DNA of 14,306 nucleotides from contig JADGJA010000593.1 of the NCBI GenBank assembly GCA_027596035.1, positions 1 through 14,306 of the forward strand, in the 5' to 3' direction. Shown here piece by piece: positions 408 to 8,589 of the stretch; position 1 is the first letter of the stretch, and every line of letters begins with the position of its first letter. The notes beneath the pieces are model-generated. The model was not told the origin of the DNA and searched no databases. It saw nothing but the letters and a program-made list of their open reading frames with translations. The stretch is from Thoreauomyces humboldtii (Eukaryota > Chytridiomycota > Chytridiomycetes > Spizellomycetales > Powellomycetaceae). Both the position numbers and the translations under genes were made by a program.

Positions 408-2046
408 TCAGCAGGCAAATGGAGCCGCTTGAGCTGCGCCTGCGTTTGGACCCGTAAAGCATTGCCGGGTTGCGAAGGCAGGCTCCGTGTTCCAGCCCTT
501 CGTATTCCAGTCAAATTGCACCCTTTGAACCGAGGGAGTGGACGGGCATGAGCTGGAGAACTTGCAGACGCGTTGACGACTAAGGCAGCTTACATCCATT
601 GCGCGTTCACCACTGGCCGTCGTTCCAATCCGGCCGATCAGGAATCCCACCTCTGAGGGTATCCGGGGTGTGCCCTGGTCAAGAACCCACTGTCCCGAGC
701 CTCCCGTGTATTCCTGAAGACCATCCACCCAAGTGGTGGCAAAGTGATGGGAGTGTCCGTCAAACACAGCTTTGACGCCGTTTCTCACGAAAAGTGCAGT
801 TTCGGCTTGTTCGGCTTGTTGAGTGGGAAAAGATTTGGTACTGTAGTCGAAATGCTGAAGAGAGACATTATTAGCATCGAACGAATGCATTCAGAACGGG
901 AGGCATCCACAAATCCACCTGGAAGACCACAATCTCGCCTCCGGGAGGGGCACCATCAATTGCGTTATCAAACCACGTCGCACCAGAAGATTCTGTATTC
1001 ATGTGCTGATCGGATCGGTCCGGAAAATCAGCGCATCCCTGCTGGCAATTGACAAATCTGCGGGGAAACGGCCGTATGAGCTATAGTCGTAATACTGTCA
1101 GGTGAAACAGGCTTACTTACCGTGTCTGGCCCACGTCGAAAGCCCAACGTGGCGGGACTCCCGTCTCGAGGTAACTGTTTCCTTCGTGATAACCCATGCA
1201 AGCCCCTGTCGTAAAGAGTCGATCAGAATTTCAGTCCATTTCTTCGGAGATGCGTTTCGATACTTACATCGAGGTCCGCAAACTAAGTGGCGCAAAATCT
1301 GGTGTCCTACTGGTCTGTCATTGTCGCCCCCCGTCGCTGCAGACGCAGGCTTCTGGACCAGGCTGTTGCCAATGCGTTCCCAGTCTGGTTAAGGCCTCGC
1401 CGGACAGGACTGAGGGTGTACCAAGGTTGTCGATGTCGTATCTATCAAGCAGGAGTCAGCAGGAGCAGTCGGCAGCGCCAGAGGGAGGGAGCCGAGTCGA
1501 CTCACATATCGTGGTTTCCTTGCCCGACAAATGTAGGCACTCCGGTAGACGCAGTTATATCGTAGAAGCGAGTTACGGCATCGTTTGCCCAAACCCTCGA
1601 GTTTTCGCCGGTGTTGACCGCATCGCCGTTGTGGCCCGCAAAGTTTCCGGGCCTTTCACCGACAGTGTCACCGGTGTTCATGAGGAAAGTGAACCTATCA
1701 CGAGAAAATAAATAAGTCAAAGAGGTTCTCGAACACTTTGTCCCCGGTTCTGCAATCTTACGCTCCAGGTGAGCCACCGTGGTGAGGCCACGTGAAAACA
1801 CCAGGAGTCATGTAGTTTTTGATCATCTAGGATGGCTAAGTCAGCAGTCATTCAAGAGCCGTACTACGTCCCCATGATACCTGTGTGATGCCAGCACGCA
1901 TGTTATTCGCCTGTGGGTTCACGTTGGCGTCTTGATTGTGGGTGGGGTCATCGGTCAATCCTGGAAAGATGTGTGAGAAATTGTTTGAAATGCCTGTGTT
2001 CATATTTCTTACTTTCATCATTGAAGTGAATGTCGGTTTCCACCAA
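408..2046 (-). other. Calcineurin-like metallophosphoesterase domain
   Basis: Nine exons (part of 2267-2013, then 1960 to 408) encode a complete dinuclear-metal phosphoesterase core. In order these are ETDIHF (D1049, H1051), MNTGDTV (D1113), QGNHDIYD (N1164, H1165), VVFQH (H1288) and DGHSHHF (H1321, H1323). Every expected metal ligand is present, so activity is plausible. The substrate cannot be told; relatives act on phosphomonoesters, phosphodiesters or nucleotides. The C-terminal part holds several Cys, which suits a secreted protein. Only about 58 residues separate GH18's WAVDLDD from this domain, and there is no signal peptide between them. Confidence 0.85.
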
Positions 2047-5000
2047 GAATGAGAAAGCGTTGTTCAAAGGAAGGTTTGAAGAAACCGGAATATCAGTCTG
2101 AGCTTTTCCGCTGAGAGGAGTCGAAGGAAGACCCGGGGCGGGGATCGACAAGCCGCCTGCGGCCATCACGGCTATTCCCAGAGCACTCTTGCGCTGATCC
2201 GAGCCAATGTCATCCAGATCAACCGCCCAAGTCTGTTTGAAGGCACCAGAGGACGTGAAGACGAATTCTGCAGAAAATTAACTGAACTCGGATTAACGCA
2301 TCAGAGTACCAGCCATGCAGGTTTCCATGGCCCAAATTGTCTTTGATCTGATGGTCTTAGGGTCGTCGAAGGATACCCATTGGTTTCCCCATGTGACGTA
2401 CGCGGCGTTGATGTCAGCGTTGAAATAACTGGGTTGTGAGATGCCGTTCTGAGCCATGAGCTCCTTGATCTCGAAATAAGAAAGAAAGCCTTCTTCATCC
2501 GTGCATCGTCCTTTGGTCCCGCCGGACACAAAAGGGCTAGAACAGGGAATCAAAACTGTCAGGACAGCAAAGTACGCAACAACCTTCCGTGTGTATGACT
2601 CACCACATCAGCGAGTCACAGGAGGGGTTGGAGAGTGTAAACGACCGCCCGTAGTAGGCTTTGCGTACAAAAGACATCAGGTCAGCGGTTAAAAGAAAGC
2701 TTTGCTTCGGTCAGCAACATGCAGAATCCTACCAAGGCCCAGTACAATCTTGTTCATGCCGACGCCGGCCTTCTGTAGCATCACGAGTGATGTTTCGATC
2801 TCATTTTTGGCGGTGTGCGGGCGAACGTAAGGCCCAGTGTCCGATTCCGTCGCGTCCCAAGTGCCGTGCATATCGTATGCCTGTTGGAATTGAGGTCAGC
2901 GTTGCTTGCCAGGCAGTGTTGAGGCTAACGACGCACCATCAGGTTAAACCAGTCGACCGAATTTTAAGTTCTGCACATCGAAACCGCGGAGATACCAGTA
3001 GCCTGTCGGCAGTGTATCGTCAAAAGTTTGCCGCCGAACATAGATTTGCATGTTTGCATTAAAGCAACGAGGCCCGAGGTGTCATTTGGATTGTACGCGT
3101 TGAGCCCGTTTCGATCATCTGCCACAGGGTCTGCAAAAAAACAGTGTAAGCTTATATAGGCTTATAGAGAGGAGGTTACGATGGCCAGTCCTTACATTCC
3201 CAGTCAATGTCGAGCCCGTCTAGACCGTGAGAATTGACGAAGTCGATGGCGTGACCACAGAATGCGCGACGATTGTCGTCGCTGGAGGCTGTACGAGAGA
3301 ATGTACCTTGCGTGGGTCCTATAAATACTGTTAAAACGAGTTTTGGCAACCATTCTCTCAAGACCTCCTACCTGGATCGTTGAACGACCATCCGCCTAGG
3401 GAAAGAACTGCTTTGACACCTTGACTGTGAGCGTCAGCGATCATCGTTCGGAGATCCTTGTCTTCTCCATCCTCCATAGAGATAGTGAAGTCGGGGTTGA
3501 TCCCGCCAAATGAATAGTACTAAGTGCAGGAAAAGAAGAATGAGAAGACACTTCGAGTGTAGGGTGACAAGCAGATCTACCATGTGCGTGTATCTAAGTA
3601 ACGATGTCAGAAGCTGGTCAAAGTGGAATTAGTTTTACGCAGTGAATTGACTTACAGGTTATAAGGGATGTCGCCAATGGGCATACCACATCCTCCCTTC
3701 CCTTCAGCCGCCCAGCCACCGTAGTATCCTATGCGAATAAAAGACGAAGGGTCTGCGCAAGGGGAACGGTCAAAGGAGAGTCCATTCGGGCTTCGAATCT
3801 ACGGTGGTGCTTACTTGGCGAGCAACTGGGGAGGCTCGACGGCATCCCACAGTTTCCCTGACATCCTTGCGAAAGCTCGCAGAACGAAGCGTCACTGCTG
3901 CAGTAGCCCCACTAAGATCATGTCAGACATGGAGACGGGTGTTAAAAGCTGAAAGGATCTCGTACCTCAGAACAGCACGTGTTCAAAGGGCATGCCTTAT
4001 TGCCAACCGATGTTTTGCCGCATTCTAGAAAATCAGGAGTAAGAGATTCACGTCGATAAAGCGGAAGAGTATCGACCGATACCTGCTTGCGGGTCAATGT
4101 ACGGCCACATGCATTGATCAACACAGCCTCCTCCTTGTGCGGGTGTAGCACAGAAGGATTGATCGATTCCGCAATATCTTGAAGATAAATGTCAGGTTTA
4201 TATAGTCTCAAAAACAAATCTCCGGAAAACATACCCGAACGAGGAGCAGCAACCTTCTTCACATTTCTTGCCTCCACTGTACGGGCCGCAGTCTAGTCAA
4301 TGGAAAGCCGTCAGTAGTGTAGCATATAGTTGCTTAGCAACTTTCAAGGTAGCGTACCGAGAGATGGATCGATGTGTGCTGGCATGTTTCCAGGCTAGGA
4401 GATTCAGGCATACAGCGTGAATAAGTGCAAGCGAGACTTTGTCATAGTATTCACAGACTTACCCCCGTGCAAAGCAGTTGGCCAGCGGAGACGGCGCTGC
4501 AATCCAGACCGGGGTTAAAGGACTGCAGCTGATCTAAAGAGATGCCGGCTGCTGTTGCCAGGTCCCAGCAATTGTCCACTACGGAAGCAGTCTGACAGTC
4601 TCCCGCAGCCTTGACAATGCGAAGAAGAGGGTTATGGGAGGACGCCTTCGTCACCTTCGCGAGGCGCTTGGGCTTTGCTAGGATGGGAGCGTGAGGTGCT
4701 CGAAGACCGTTGGAATTGGGGGCGCCGCTTCGAAACAGCTTCGGCTTGTCAGTCTTGAAAAATGTGCTGGGAGCGACGATCTTGGCGGAAGCGGCGGCAG
4801 CAGTAAAGCTCTTTGGGCCGGTGCTTCCGTGTTCCACACCGACTTTCACGCAGAGACGCCAAGTATTCTGGAGAAAGAAAGTCAGGGACTGAGAGCGGAG
4901 TGGAGTAGGAGCCTGGTACGCACATCGATAGAAGGGCAAGATGCGGCCGGAATCAGCGACATGAGCGCTGACATCGTGAGGTTGTTGGAGCTAGCAATTC

Positions 5001-6318
5001 CTTCACATGTCTGACCCTTTATAACCTACGGAAAGAACGTTGGATGAGTTGAAGTTTTGCGAAAACTGGGATGCCACATTCCTTTACCTGCAACCACGTG
5101 CCACAAGCTGGCGCACCGTATGGACGAGTACACAAGTTTGTTCCGACGGTAATCGGACTCGAGCAGTCGAATTGAGGGTTCAGGATTTCAAGAGTGGTCA
5201 TCTGGATACCGTAGAAGGGCGCGATCGTGTTGCACGTCTGCTGAGCAGCTGTAGCTGCGTTACGTTTGCCACACAAGGCCACCGGTGTGGGGGGAGCGGG
5301 TACAGGAGTGGGCGGAACGGGAGTGCCCCTCGACGGGTGCGCCGAATCCGAGATACAGACAGAGTAAGATTTCTGTGCGAAGATATGGAGAAATCCACGG
5401 TGAGCGTAAAGTCACGATGAGGCAAAGGCAAGCAAACATGTTTACCAAGCTTTGCTTGCAGTCGACATAAGGATTCAAGCGCAAGAAGTCATTGCGTGTG
5501 ATCTTGTTGAACGACACAGCACTCGCGCATGTAGAACCAACGGGCAGCAACGGGGACCAAGAGGTACAGGATGTCACGTTGGACATTCGTACGCAAGGAG
5601 TCTGGCCTGTGAAAAGCGCGCCGCAATCGAGCCAGGGGTTCAAGGATAGGAGCGATGCCTGCGACATGCCGTAGGAACGCGAGAGGGTGACGCAGGTGGA
5701 GTTCTCGTTGACCTTCTTGGTCAAGGTGCAGGTTGTGACGTTCGCGGGCAGGGGCGCGGGAGTGGGGACGGCAGGAACATTATTGGGTTTGACGGGATGG
5801 GTCCTCCATTGCTCTGGAGCGCTGCCATCGCAAGAACTGAGATGTGAAGAAAGGGGAAATCGCGCTTTAGTTCGGTTGGCTATCGAGATTTTTCGCCAGC
5901 GTGCACGGAAAACAAACCTGAGCGATCCGGAGACACCAGCTGTCAAGCACTGCAGGGGAAACCCCTGCCCGACGGTGATGTTCGAGGGAGCAGTGAAGCT
6001 GTGAATGACGACGCTCTGCTGAGGTGGAAGATCGTCCGAGCAAGGCTGCATGCCATTGCTGGTGAGGCATGCGGCCGAGTTGTTGTTCATCAGGAGATTC
6101 ATGTTCGGAACGTAGAACCAGGTTTGAAGACTGAGGCCCTTGGCCACAACCCCTGGAAGCTTGCAGGGAGCCATGAAAGTGGTCCCATTGTCGGAAGCAG
6201 AGAAACAAGCTGAGGATCCGGCCCGCACCAGTTGGTAGTTGCCGGTTTGAGCGGCGACGTAAGGACTGGCGAGAAGGGCGGCGGTAGCGACGGCCAGGAG
6301 CCCCGGAACGAGTGGCAT
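408..6318 (-). CDS. Secreted LysM-CBM18-GH18 chitinase fused to a metallophosphoesterase (27 exons, about 1,435 codons)
   Basis: Predicted to be a secreted or cell-wall chitin-binding protein with chitinase (GH18) and metal-dependent phosphoesterase domains. The start ATG (6316-6318) opens a clear signal peptide (MPLVPGLLAVATAALLASPY). Exons, as minus-strand intervals: 6318-5918, 5836-5446, 5372-5088, 5025-4924, 4867-4463, 4394-4358, 4292-4235, 4177-4083, 4024-3966, 3911-3815, 3728-3656, 3593-3581, 3519-3372, 3318-3196, 3130-2937, 2880-2733, 2658-2604, 2536-2310, 2267-2013, 1960-1881, 1826-1762, 1694-1506, 1441-1422, 1384-1268, 1205-1121, 1057-919, 854-408. Every junction is GT-AG and keeps phase, and the stop is at 408-410. 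Order of parts: beta-trefoil-like 24-150, LysM x5 about 168-528, CBM18 x2 about 541-640, GH18 about 644-990, phosphoesterase about 1049-1435. Oddities: compensating indels with an in-frame TAA at 2964-2966; the junction at 2310/2267 is uncertain; intron 1 (81 nt) has no stop, so it could be retained. If the phosphoesterase were a separate gene, its first in-frame ATG would be 2166, without a signal peptide. Confidence 0.7.
2209..3815 (-). other. GH18 chitinase catalytic domain, subgroup-C type
   Basis: It begins RYYGGWAAEGKGGCGMP, followed by YTHMYYSFGG, the substrate-site SxGG motif (LSLGGWSF) and the catalytic DGLDIDWE (residues about 755-762) with all three Asp and the acid Glu present. 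YWYLRGFDVQ, SVDWFNLMAYDMHGTWD, GLAYYGRSF, PFVSGGTKGRCTDEEGFLSY and a closing WAVDLDD (984-990) follow. These are the standard landmarks of subgroup-C enzymes, in order. The active site is therefore intact, but YWYLRGFDVQ lies in a shifted frame (see 2964-3030). The segment just before WAVDLDD carries about 10 unexpected residues, or a mis-predicted splice. Confidence 0.85.
2964..3030 (-). other. Compensated frameshift with in-frame stop inside GH18
   Basis: In exon 15 the frame leaves the GH18 pattern after FGGKLL. The conserved (T)LPTGYWYLRGFDVQNLK is read one frame over, as if one base were missing near 3016-3030. The original frame resumes at SVDWFNLM, as if one base were added near the AAAATT run at about 2960-2967. 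Read without shifts, only one stop appears (TAA, 2964-2966, codon 818). Sequencing error, an allele under decay, or a real null are all possible. The other coding exons of the gene keep phase. Confidence 0.75.
3815..4292 (-). other. Two CBM18 (type-1 chitin-binding) modules
   Basis: The first module starts DCGPYSGGKKCEEGCCSSFG and continues YCGIDQSFC...GGGC after an intron (4178-4234). The second starts ECGKTSVGNKACPL and continues TCCSEWGYCSS...GCQGNCG. Each has the eight-cysteine hevein spacing with the CCS-aromatic-G-YC core. The GCQ.NCG..P..SCSP tail that leads straight into GH18 is typical of fungal subgroup-C (killer-toxin-like) chitinases. Four exons encode the pair, with phases that agree throughout. 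Confidence 0.88.
4463..6318 (-). other. N-terminal module: signal peptide, beta-trefoil-like domain, five LysM repeats
   Basis: After the signal peptide (residues 1-23), residues 24-150 resemble a ricin-B-like beta-trefoil: repeated CLT..G-type turns and a closing CDGSAPEQW (QxW-like). Five Cys-containing fungal-type LysM units follow, recognisable by CxxLA-like helices and 'NP..DC' turns: about 168-217 (LNPWLDC), 221-272 (LNPYVDC), 298-350 (LNPQFDC), 355-406 (GQTCEGIA...LIPAASC) and 480-528 (FNPGLDC...LLCTG). A Pro/Thr-rich linker separates units 2 and 3, and a Lys/Ala-rich linker (about 410-475) separates units 4 and 5. LysM domains bind chitin or GlcNAc oligomers. The beta-trefoil call is tentative; the LysM calls are firmer. 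Confidence 0.7.
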
Positions 6319-6792: not shown

Positions 6793-6826
6793 TACGATAC
6801 CGGTAAGTGCTGTAACGGTATGGTAC
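6793..6826. repeat. Imperfect inverted repeat GTACGATACCG / CGGTATGGTAC
   Basis: Arms at 6793-6803 and 6816-6826 are complementary at 10 of 11 positions, with a 12-nt spacer. The repeat lies 55-90 bp upstream of the plus-strand start codon, a usual place for an activator site. No factor is recognised. Confidence 0.5.
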
Positions 6827-6876
6827 GATTACTGTCAGTCGGTCCCAAACTCCTAGAGGCAGCCCGGTCAAGATAC

Positions 6877-6884
6877 ATGTAATG
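6877..6884 (+). promoter_or_regulatory. Start-stop uORF overlapping the main start (ATGTAATG)
   Basis: An upstream ATG at 6877-6879 is followed directly by TAA (6880-6882), and the last A of that stop is the first base of the main ATG (6882-6884). The arrangement is seen in the sequence. Minimal start-stop uORFs are known in other eukaryotes to hold initiating ribosomes. Here it would couple termination to re-initiation if the transcript includes it. Confidence 0.5.
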
Positions 6885-8097
6885 TCAGTCTTCGTCAACT
6901 CGTCGGCTTACCAGCTGGTGCTTTTCTGCGTCCTCTCGGTGCTCCTCTCACAATTACACCAGGTCTCTAGCTCCTCGCTCCTCTCCTCCTATCAGGCCGC
7001 CGGCCTCTTATCAACCTCCGCCACAGACTACACCCGCTTCTTCTCCACCTGCTACACCACCTTGAACGTTTCATGTGCTCCCATCAACGAATCCACCGTC
7101 GTGCCCTTTGGGAGCTACGTGACCATCCTCTTGAACACCACCGGGCTCTTCGACGACCCGGATACCGGTTACCTTGCGTCGATGGCGGACCAGCCCTTCG
7201 GGAACCTCACCCTCCAGCTCGCACCTTCCGCAGGTGCGCTCCCAGGCGATGGACCGCGCGGACAACCGCCCCACACCGTTCTGGGTTGCCAAGCCGTGAG
7301 CAAGTATCGCACGCAGCTCGGCTTGCCCGCCGAAGGCTGGCTCCCGGTCCTGGGCCAGCTCGTCGTGGACTTTGTGCAAGATATGTGGGGCCAGACCGTT
7401 ATTTTCACACAGGGCGTCGAGAGAGACGTGTGGATCTACAGTGAAGAATGGCCATACATCCTTGGACAAGATTGGTTCGTGGGAAAATCAGGCATTCCGG
7501 ACTCTGGCGTCGACGCCGTGCAGTGGATCGTCAGCGTCAATTCTGTCCACGCTCCTGCCGGGTTTGCAGCCGGATCCTTCAACCTGTCATACTCGTTGCC
7601 GAACAGTACTTGGGGCCTGTCATACTTGGCGGACCGCCCGCAGGGAAGATCTTTGGACGGCCAAGTTCCTCTCATCTATGGCTGGGGGGACTTTGCTCAA
7701 TGGAAAATAAGAGCGAATCAAGACGATGCGCCGGCAGCAGGTCCTTTGCTCGATGCGAATACCAAAATAGCGATCGCAAGTGAGTCCCCTTGCCTTCACT
7801 CCGTCGGCACTTCGATGGCATTCGAGCTGATGAAACTTGCTCTGGCAGTCTCCATTCCTTCTTGCGTGCTTTTCTTGTCGCTCGTCTTCATTGTCTGCCG
7901 CAAGGGTTACTGCGGAGGACGCAAGGATGCCGGTCCAAGCCGGTCCAAGCCGGTCCAAGCGGCCGACATGGTAAGTCTTCTCACCCTTTTGTCTCTCGAC
8001 CGTTTGCAAATGCATATCCTTATTCGTCTTTGCCTAGGCTGCTGGAGTCCCCGTTGTTCGAGAAGACGTCAAGAACAGAAATTGGGGCACTGCGTAA
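6882..8097 (+). CDS. Unrecognised glycosylated type I membrane protein (359 residues, 3 exons)
   Basis: I do not recognise a family. Exons are 6882-7779, 7849-7970 and 8038-8097, with a TAA at 8095-8097. Both introns have strong donors (GTGAGT, GTAAGT) and keep phase. The first intron (7780-7848) is 69 nt with no stop, so it also reads through. Removing it joins IAIA to ISIPSCVLFLSLVFIVCRK and makes a clean membrane helix (about residues 295-316). The N-terminus has a long hydrophobic signal (about 1-30). The extracellular part (about 31-290) has many N-x-S/T sites (NVS, NES, NTT, NLT, NLS, NST) and few Cys. A short Cys/Gly/Lys- and Arg-rich cytoplasmic tail follows (CRKGYCGGRKDAG...), ending near NRNWGTA. 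It is transcribed divergently from the chitinase-phosphoesterase gene. Confidence 0.75.
7931..7960 (+). repeat. Three tandem 10-bp repeats inside coding sequence
   Basis: CGGTCCAAGC occurs three times head to tail, just before the last donor site of the membrane-protein gene. Because 10 is not a multiple of 3, each copy is read in a different frame. Only three copies together (30 bp) keep the downstream frame. They encode the GPSRSKPVQA segment of the cytoplasmic tail. Confidence 0.95.
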
Positions 8098-8589
8098 CGT
8101 TTGGGGCGGTAGATGTCTGTAAGATAATATGATAGACAAGAACTTGATGTGACGTCGGATTCTCTTCCTGAAGTTTATATGTAACATAAGGGTTGGCCGT
8201 TGACACCGGTACTACTCCCGCCGCTCTCTTTCAATAACCTTCTTGCAACATTTGCTTTCAGAAGCGTCTACAACCCGGCAGGGACGCTTGGATTGTTGAA
8301 GACAGCTCGTGGTAGAGGTCGCCAAACGGGCGATGCTCGCATTGAATCGTCCCGTTTACAGGAAAGCTTTCCAAAGCGACCGTGTTGCCGCGTCCTCCTC
8401 TCATCCACCTTCTCTGCCTTCTCATCCACCTTTCTTCTCCCTCTTCCTCCACCTGTGCCCGGGATCATTGCCACCTCCGCCAGGATGGCCGGCCTCGCCA
8501 CTGCCAGTGCCAGGTGCAATCCTCGTTGGCTCCAGTAGTGCTAAAGACTGTCACGTGGGGGGAATCTGGTTTCCACGATTGATTCTATT
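8098..8589. other. Intergenic stretch with a pyrimidine-rich tract
   Basis: No supportable gene is seen. The region is the 3' UTR of the plus-strand membrane-protein gene and, presumably, of the minus-strand ORF ending at 8590. A pyrimidine-rich tract at about 8390-8460 contains an imperfect direct repeat of CTCATCCACCTT (about 8399-8433). Open frames here are short and low in complexity. Confidence 0.5.

Follow-up and report, generated by a model that had tools for sequence, protein, structure and literature searches.

On the minus strand of a 14,306-base contig (C546; the whole contig is the window analyzed here) of Thoreauomyces humboldtii, a spizellomycetalean chytrid, a gene of 26 exons runs from an ATG at 6318 to a stop at 408 and joins a GH18 chitinase to a calcineurin-like metallophosphoesterase. 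We consider it likely, with a probability of about 0.7, that this gene encodes a secreted, chitin-anchored chitinase-phosphoesterase and that the sequenced copy is broken by local errors or by fresh damage. Its predicted product would comprise, in order, a signal peptide, a ricin-like N-terminus, LysM repeats, two CBM18 domains, a GH18 domain of the clade C type and the metallophosphoesterase. The gene holds the domains in this order, joins the two catalytic ones within one exon and one frame, and carries both sets of catalytic motifs, an order that occurs in no other protein of the searches described below. The genome comprises 20.7 Mb in 823 contigs; a culture of the species, JEL0095, is named in the available part of PMC7537106.

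The two catalytic domains meet in a single exon of 255 nt (2267-2013), which in our reading of the gene model contains the end of GH18, a linker and the start of the phosphoesterase, and with which the deposited protein agrees. Here WAVDLDD (2229-2209, residues 994-1000), the closing motif of GH18, shares its frame with ETDIH (2040-2026) of the phosphoesterase; ETDIHF begins at residue 1057, leaving 56 residues between the two. This joint frame is free of stops and both other frames carry them, and on reading the stretch between WAVDLDD and ETDIH we saw neither a second signal peptide nor an intergenic gap. The initial annotation had placed both motifs about 60 codons apart in one uninterrupted minus-strand frame, with no stop, signal peptide or intergenic space at the joint, and had given the gene the span 6318-408; the open 255-nt exon and the ATG at 6318 agree with it on each of these points. 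The intron that precedes the fusion exon in the model (2309-2268), placed from the model, the alignment and splice scoring, measures 42 nt, less than any of the remaining 24 introns (52-81 nt), and its use adds about nine residues directly before WAVDLDD that are present in none of nine aligned GH18 sequences, a paralogue on contig C427 included. The splice at this intron may be misjudged, or a further frame problem may lie there; the joint frame is independent of the choice.

The DNA on the two sides of the joint is alike. The GC content at third codon positions (GC3) is 0.54-0.67 over five parts of the gene, introns upstream of the joint measure 42-81 nt with a GC of 0.45 and those downstream 52-67 nt with a GC of 0.47, and the joint DNA is single-copy in the genome. 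Matching composition on both sides, together with unique joint DNA, gives no sign of a misjoined contig. We therefore rejected, on composition, a misassembly in which the chitinase and a phosphoesterase from elsewhere in the genome were wrongly put together: the pairing is known from one genome only and the stop of the gene lies about 400 bases from the contig end, but the joint is located within coding sequence of one exon and exactly in frame, and GC, GC3, intron length and intron GC all match across it, making this explanation quite unlikely.

The deposited protein of the gene, HKX48_007207 (P0001 in our searches; 1,159 aa), is identical to our gene model over its first 809 residues, continues with ten residues of its own within GH18, and rejoins the model at AYDMHG for a common run of 339 residues that passes over the fusion joint up to GNHD. 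Since this run crosses the joint, the deposited model shares with ours both the 42-nt intron and the fusion exon; it stops at GNHDM because the intron at 1505 is unused. The deposited annotation thus likewise fuses both domains, yet truncates the phosphoesterase. An in-frame ATG near 2166 could serve a separate phosphoesterase gene whose transcript begins inside the 3′ end of GH18. No signal peptide is visible after this ATG, however, and no intergenic space precedes the phosphoesterase; given that the two domains share an exon and a frame and are fused in the deposited model, we rejected two separate genes as very improbable. A fusion of GH18 and phosphoesterase at the gene level is therefore well supported, by the single exon, the common frame, the like composition and intron style, the unique DNA and the deposited read-through.

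To place this pairing among known proteins, we searched with the region from GH18 to the end of the protein, which gave 36 matches among 7,994 scored candidates, these being the ones that share most words with it. PF00149 is listed for no protein among the 36, whether P0001 or the remaining 35, and the matches of those 35 extend over no more than 47% of the query region, approximately the share of GH18. Because P0001 holds half of the phosphoesterase domain and yet goes without the PF00149 label, coverage is better evidence than the label. On both counts the C-terminal partner looks as unusual as the initial annotation had supposed. Searched exon by exon with PF00149, the genome showed 16 matches. 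They lie on nine contigs, which do not include those of the other GH18 genes. The chitinase on C427 (L031, C427:5500-12500) consists of LysM, CBM18 and GH18 followed by an extension of several hundred residues, which showed no Pfam match above cut-off in the two pieces tested. No chitinase-phosphoesterase fusion was found in the available portions of the literature, and in the accessible parts of PMC3853031, PMC4480369, PMC9879509 and PMC10515909 both domains are named in separate entries, with no fusion.

The metallophosphoesterase domain (approximately 2060-600) matches the Metallophos profile PF00149 over positions 3-190 of 191, scoring 26.3 bits for the domain alone and 21.9 bits in the whole protein against a cut-off of 21.5. 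By reading, its metal motifs are TDIH, NTGD and GNHD in one frame, and FQH and GHSH in a second; all the metal ligands listed in the initial annotation (D-x-H, GD, GNH, H and GHxH) are accordingly present. Motif V and the C-terminal tail make up the last exon of the model, which runs to the stop (854-408). The domain shares this set of metal-ligand motifs and a full-length profile match with PF00149 enzymes at large, of which purple acid phosphatases are one example; it has no close relative at E ≤ 0.001 in our searches. None of 2,669 candidates of about 238-757 aa reached an E of 0.001, and when the same region was compared with longer proteins (about 802-2,551 aa; 6,563 candidates), only P0001 itself reached an E of 1. 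Solved structures gave two chance matches only (E 0.63 and 0.87), NCBIfam gave no family, and phages gave no match; four pattern matches in bacterial and archaeal contigs and two in viral contigs were found, none of which was confirmed. The same genome yielded no further copy of the phosphoesterase.

A tblastn search of plasmids returned one weak match, a Rhodococcus metallophosphoesterase (E 0.03, 24% over 140 residues), which is a relative of Rv0805 and also matches the phosphohydrolase structures 2zo9 and 3d03, presumably GpdQ. Rv0805, GpdQ and CpdA belong to what we take to be the class III cyclic-nucleotide phosphodiesterases. The phosphoesterase resembles this class in that its sole alignable relative, the Rhodococcus plasmid protein, matches Rv0805, and differs from it in that the Rhodococcus match spans only the part from motif IV to motif V and the domain has no meaningful structure match. 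No full-length similarity to Rv0805, GpdQ or CpdA was found, the link being partial and indirect; the Rhodococcus match is a lead to the class III enzymes and not a classification. The domain is not assignable to a PF00149 subfamily from this analysis. In Rhodococcus erythropolis, the Rv0805-like metallophosphoesterase gene lies among sugar ABC transporter genes on plasmid pMGMM8_1 (L082 1201-2070).

The chitinase half begins with the start codon and a probable signal peptide of residues 1-23 (6318-6250), predicted from the translation by its hydrophobic character and AxA-like end. The stretch that follows (6240-5790, about 120 residues) bears a weak likeness to a ricin-type beta-trefoil (Pfam Ricin_B_lectin, E 0.0019), its score of 18.8 bits lying under the Pfam cut-off of 29. 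LysM domains occupy approximately 5745-4466 (PF01476, 74.3 bits), four of them recognized by Pfam and a fifth visible by eye, and two CBM18 (chitin-recognition) domains lie at 4292-3815 (PF00187, 49.3 bits in two stretches). The GH18 catalytic domain (3752-2209), evident also from its alignment with nine relatives, matches PF00704 at an E of 3e-52 and with 178.7 bits against a cut-off of 29.6, its pieces having been joined with X at the frame breaks described below; its DxxDxDxE motif is present as DGLDIDWE, aligned with that of the relatives.

When the exons are joined as sequenced, a TAA appears in exon 3130-2937 and the frame is lost for good in exon 1441-1268. GH18 consequently lacks one continuous frame: near 3015 (3020-3010) the conserved sequence goes on in another frame, near 2958 (2962-2954) the original frame returns, and the TAA stands in the first frame between these two breaks, which cancel in length but leave the stop. 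The third break lies in the phosphoesterase near 1330 (1335-1326), in a run of six G, unless an unmodelled intron accounts for it. The claim that every splice junction keeps phase down to the stop at 408 is therefore wrong; all 25 introns are bounded by GT and AG, but the three breaks fall inside exons. The four pieces between the breaks amount to 1,455 residues without a stop (1,458 positions when an X is counted for each break), and the last piece runs for 243 codons before its stop. Beyond each break the frames stay open and the splice sites are retained, which speaks for recent constraint.

For the GH18 alignment ten chitinases were fetched from the 35 matches other than P0001, and eight of them were aligned together with the C427 paralogue, P0015 (which by eye has no insert before its WAID) and P0024 (which is without that motif) being left out. 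Compared with these nine relatives, the GH18 pieces miss no conserved block, and conserved residues persist between the two breaks, which are thus either lesions or errors, set in a sequence that is conserved around them. An extra intron as the cause was ruled out, since among introns of 35-200 nt within exon 3130-2937 none (0 choices) would keep an open frame. The detour that the deposited model takes around the two GH18 breaks was likewise rejected, as its donor scores -9.0, where the modelled donors have scores of 1.8-8.9, and as it removes the conserved stretch YWYLRGFD...DWFNLM. For the third break, exon 1441-1268 offers 28 frame-keeping intron choices, the best being a GT-AG intron at 1421-1337 with a splice score of 6.4. 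Leave-one-out scores of the 25 modelled introns range from 4.8 to 16.8 with a median of 11.7, so that this score is within the range, though near its bottom, and an overlooked intron could account for the third break; with 28 choices to draw on, the finding of one that keeps the frame is weak evidence. Frame tracking by codon usage was not relied on, for its switch near 1377 fits the third break but it also gave false switches at 5602-5270 and 560 and missed the GH18 pair.

As controls for assembly quality, we used 18 loci of the same genome, 13 of TCP1/Hsp60 and five of HSP70, assembled from exon-by-exon profile matches. No frame break was seen at their 45 joints, over 8,586 profile positions, and every joint implies an intron-like insertion of 46-218 nt. 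Stops occurred within the matched stretch in 22 of 63 control rows; in the 18 inspected by eye they lay close to an edge or within an insert that resembles an intron, the other four, which belong to no locus, having been outside this inspection. Since the control loci are unbroken, poor sequence throughout the assembly is unlikely to be the cause, and the breaks are local to this gene. The controls do not separate local error from decay, because they are strongly constrained housekeeping genes, because compensating pairs of breaks escape detection, and because two of them are near-copies, on C97 and C124, which leaves the 18 loci not fully independent. These near-identical genes of the TCP1 family (L040/L050 on C97 and L041/L049 on C124) differ in their introns and are perhaps haplotypes or the result of a recent duplication; if they are haplotypes, some genes here may exist as single alleles.

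We hold it to be about an even chance that the breaks are local sequence or assembly errors in an intact gene, the third perhaps being an unmodelled intron. One break lies in a run of six G, conserved GH18 sequence resumes immediately after each of the first two, and the intron at 1421-1337 would save the frame at the third; on the other hand, no such errors occur at the control loci, and the choice among 28 introns lessens the value of the one found. More tentatively, the fusion may have existed and the sequenced copy may recently have gone out of frame in GH18, possibly in the phosphoesterase too, which would make it a pseudogene of recent origin or a null allele. Such a loss would account for the GH18 pair of breaks, for which the exon offers no bridging intron, and for a cluster of breaks absent from all 18 control loci (0/45 joints), given that under an equal break rate per base the chance of finding all three in the fusion gene is about 0.003. 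Nevertheless, the four pieces run through 1,455 codons without a nonsense codon, GT-AG borders are kept at 25/25 modelled introns and conserved GH18 residues persist between both breaks, and the housekeeping controls do not tell decay from error.

Several results weigh against a chitinase-phosphoesterase encoded by this gene. As sequenced, translation halts in GH18, short of the phosphoesterase, and three breaks fall within 4,369 nt of the fusion gene against none at the control joints. The Metallophos score is modest. No protein with a GH18-phosphoesterase pair was found by searches on five-residue words, which miss remote relatives and whose coverage of the Powellomycetaceae is not established. 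The genome search with PF00149 gave no match on the fusion contig either; having missed that contig by reading exon by exon, it is a weak control. Of the single fused protein acting on chitin and on phosphoesters that was originally proposed, the fusion stands at the level of the gene, and the dual-acting protein is conjectural, as the message stops in GH18 and a third break follows unless a weak extra intron is used. The architecture is new as far as our searches reach, and its full-length product is putative. That the gene yields a working, secreted bifunctional enzyme, with a phosphoesterase of a subfamily unseen before and a clade C C-terminal extension of a new kind evolved in the Powellomycetaceae, is a possibility to which we give somewhat less than even odds.

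To our knowledge, the long C-terminal extensions of clade C chitinases are mostly without known function. The fusion gene combines LysM, CBM18, GH18 and a C-terminal extension, as clade C genes do, and resembles the fungal GH18 chitinases of this clade in the order of the first three, in a secreted-looking N-terminus and in the size of the extension after GH18. It differs from them in that its extension holds a metallophosphoesterase; that of the C427 chitinase, by comparison, was without a Pfam match above cut-off in the two pieces tested. According to the available parts of PMC8042737, in which 373 fungal genomes were surveyed, neither LysM nor chitin-binding domains mark out a clade, clade C proteins are larger owing to a C-terminal extension, and one chitinase of Spizellomyces punctatus has many LysM domains. 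The methods given there sought carbohydrate-binding and LysM domains, the sole use of "phosph" in the accessible text being for a buffer, and none of such chitinases is said to have been functionally characterized in earlier work. GH18 was present in all zoosporic species studied in PMC6690862, as far as its available portion states.

Elsewhere in the window, a 438-codon open frame on the plus strand (6816-8132), which faces outward from the chitinase, matches no Pfam family and probably has a membrane stretch close to its end. An ABC transporter gene on the minus strand (14304-11333), in which a membrane region accompanies two ABC_tran stretches, runs off the contig end, its last part lying in another frame after a likely intron. 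Near a CBM18-GH18 chitinase on another contig (L033, C67:2500-8500), repeated peptides such as RAKRAQVPS/ERSEP, encoded in open frames at about 3700-4120, are suggestive of a repeat insertion.

Species of this order are known as saprotrophs. From this life style and from the domain families, we infer how a chitinase-phosphoesterase of this kind might act: the lectin-like part and the LysM and CBM18 domains would tether the enzyme to chitin-rich walls, GH18 would open the chitin, and the two-metal phosphoesterase would cleave phosphoesters freed or exposed at the wall, so that the fungus might gain sugar, nitrogen and phosphate from one wall. Should the frame breaks be real, the gene would instead illustrate the loss of a fusion enzyme shortly after its origin. 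If the fusion enzyme is real, a catalytic phosphoesterase in this position would be a concrete and testable function for the clade C extension, and would suggest that this chytrid draws phosphate from the chitinous walls that it digests.

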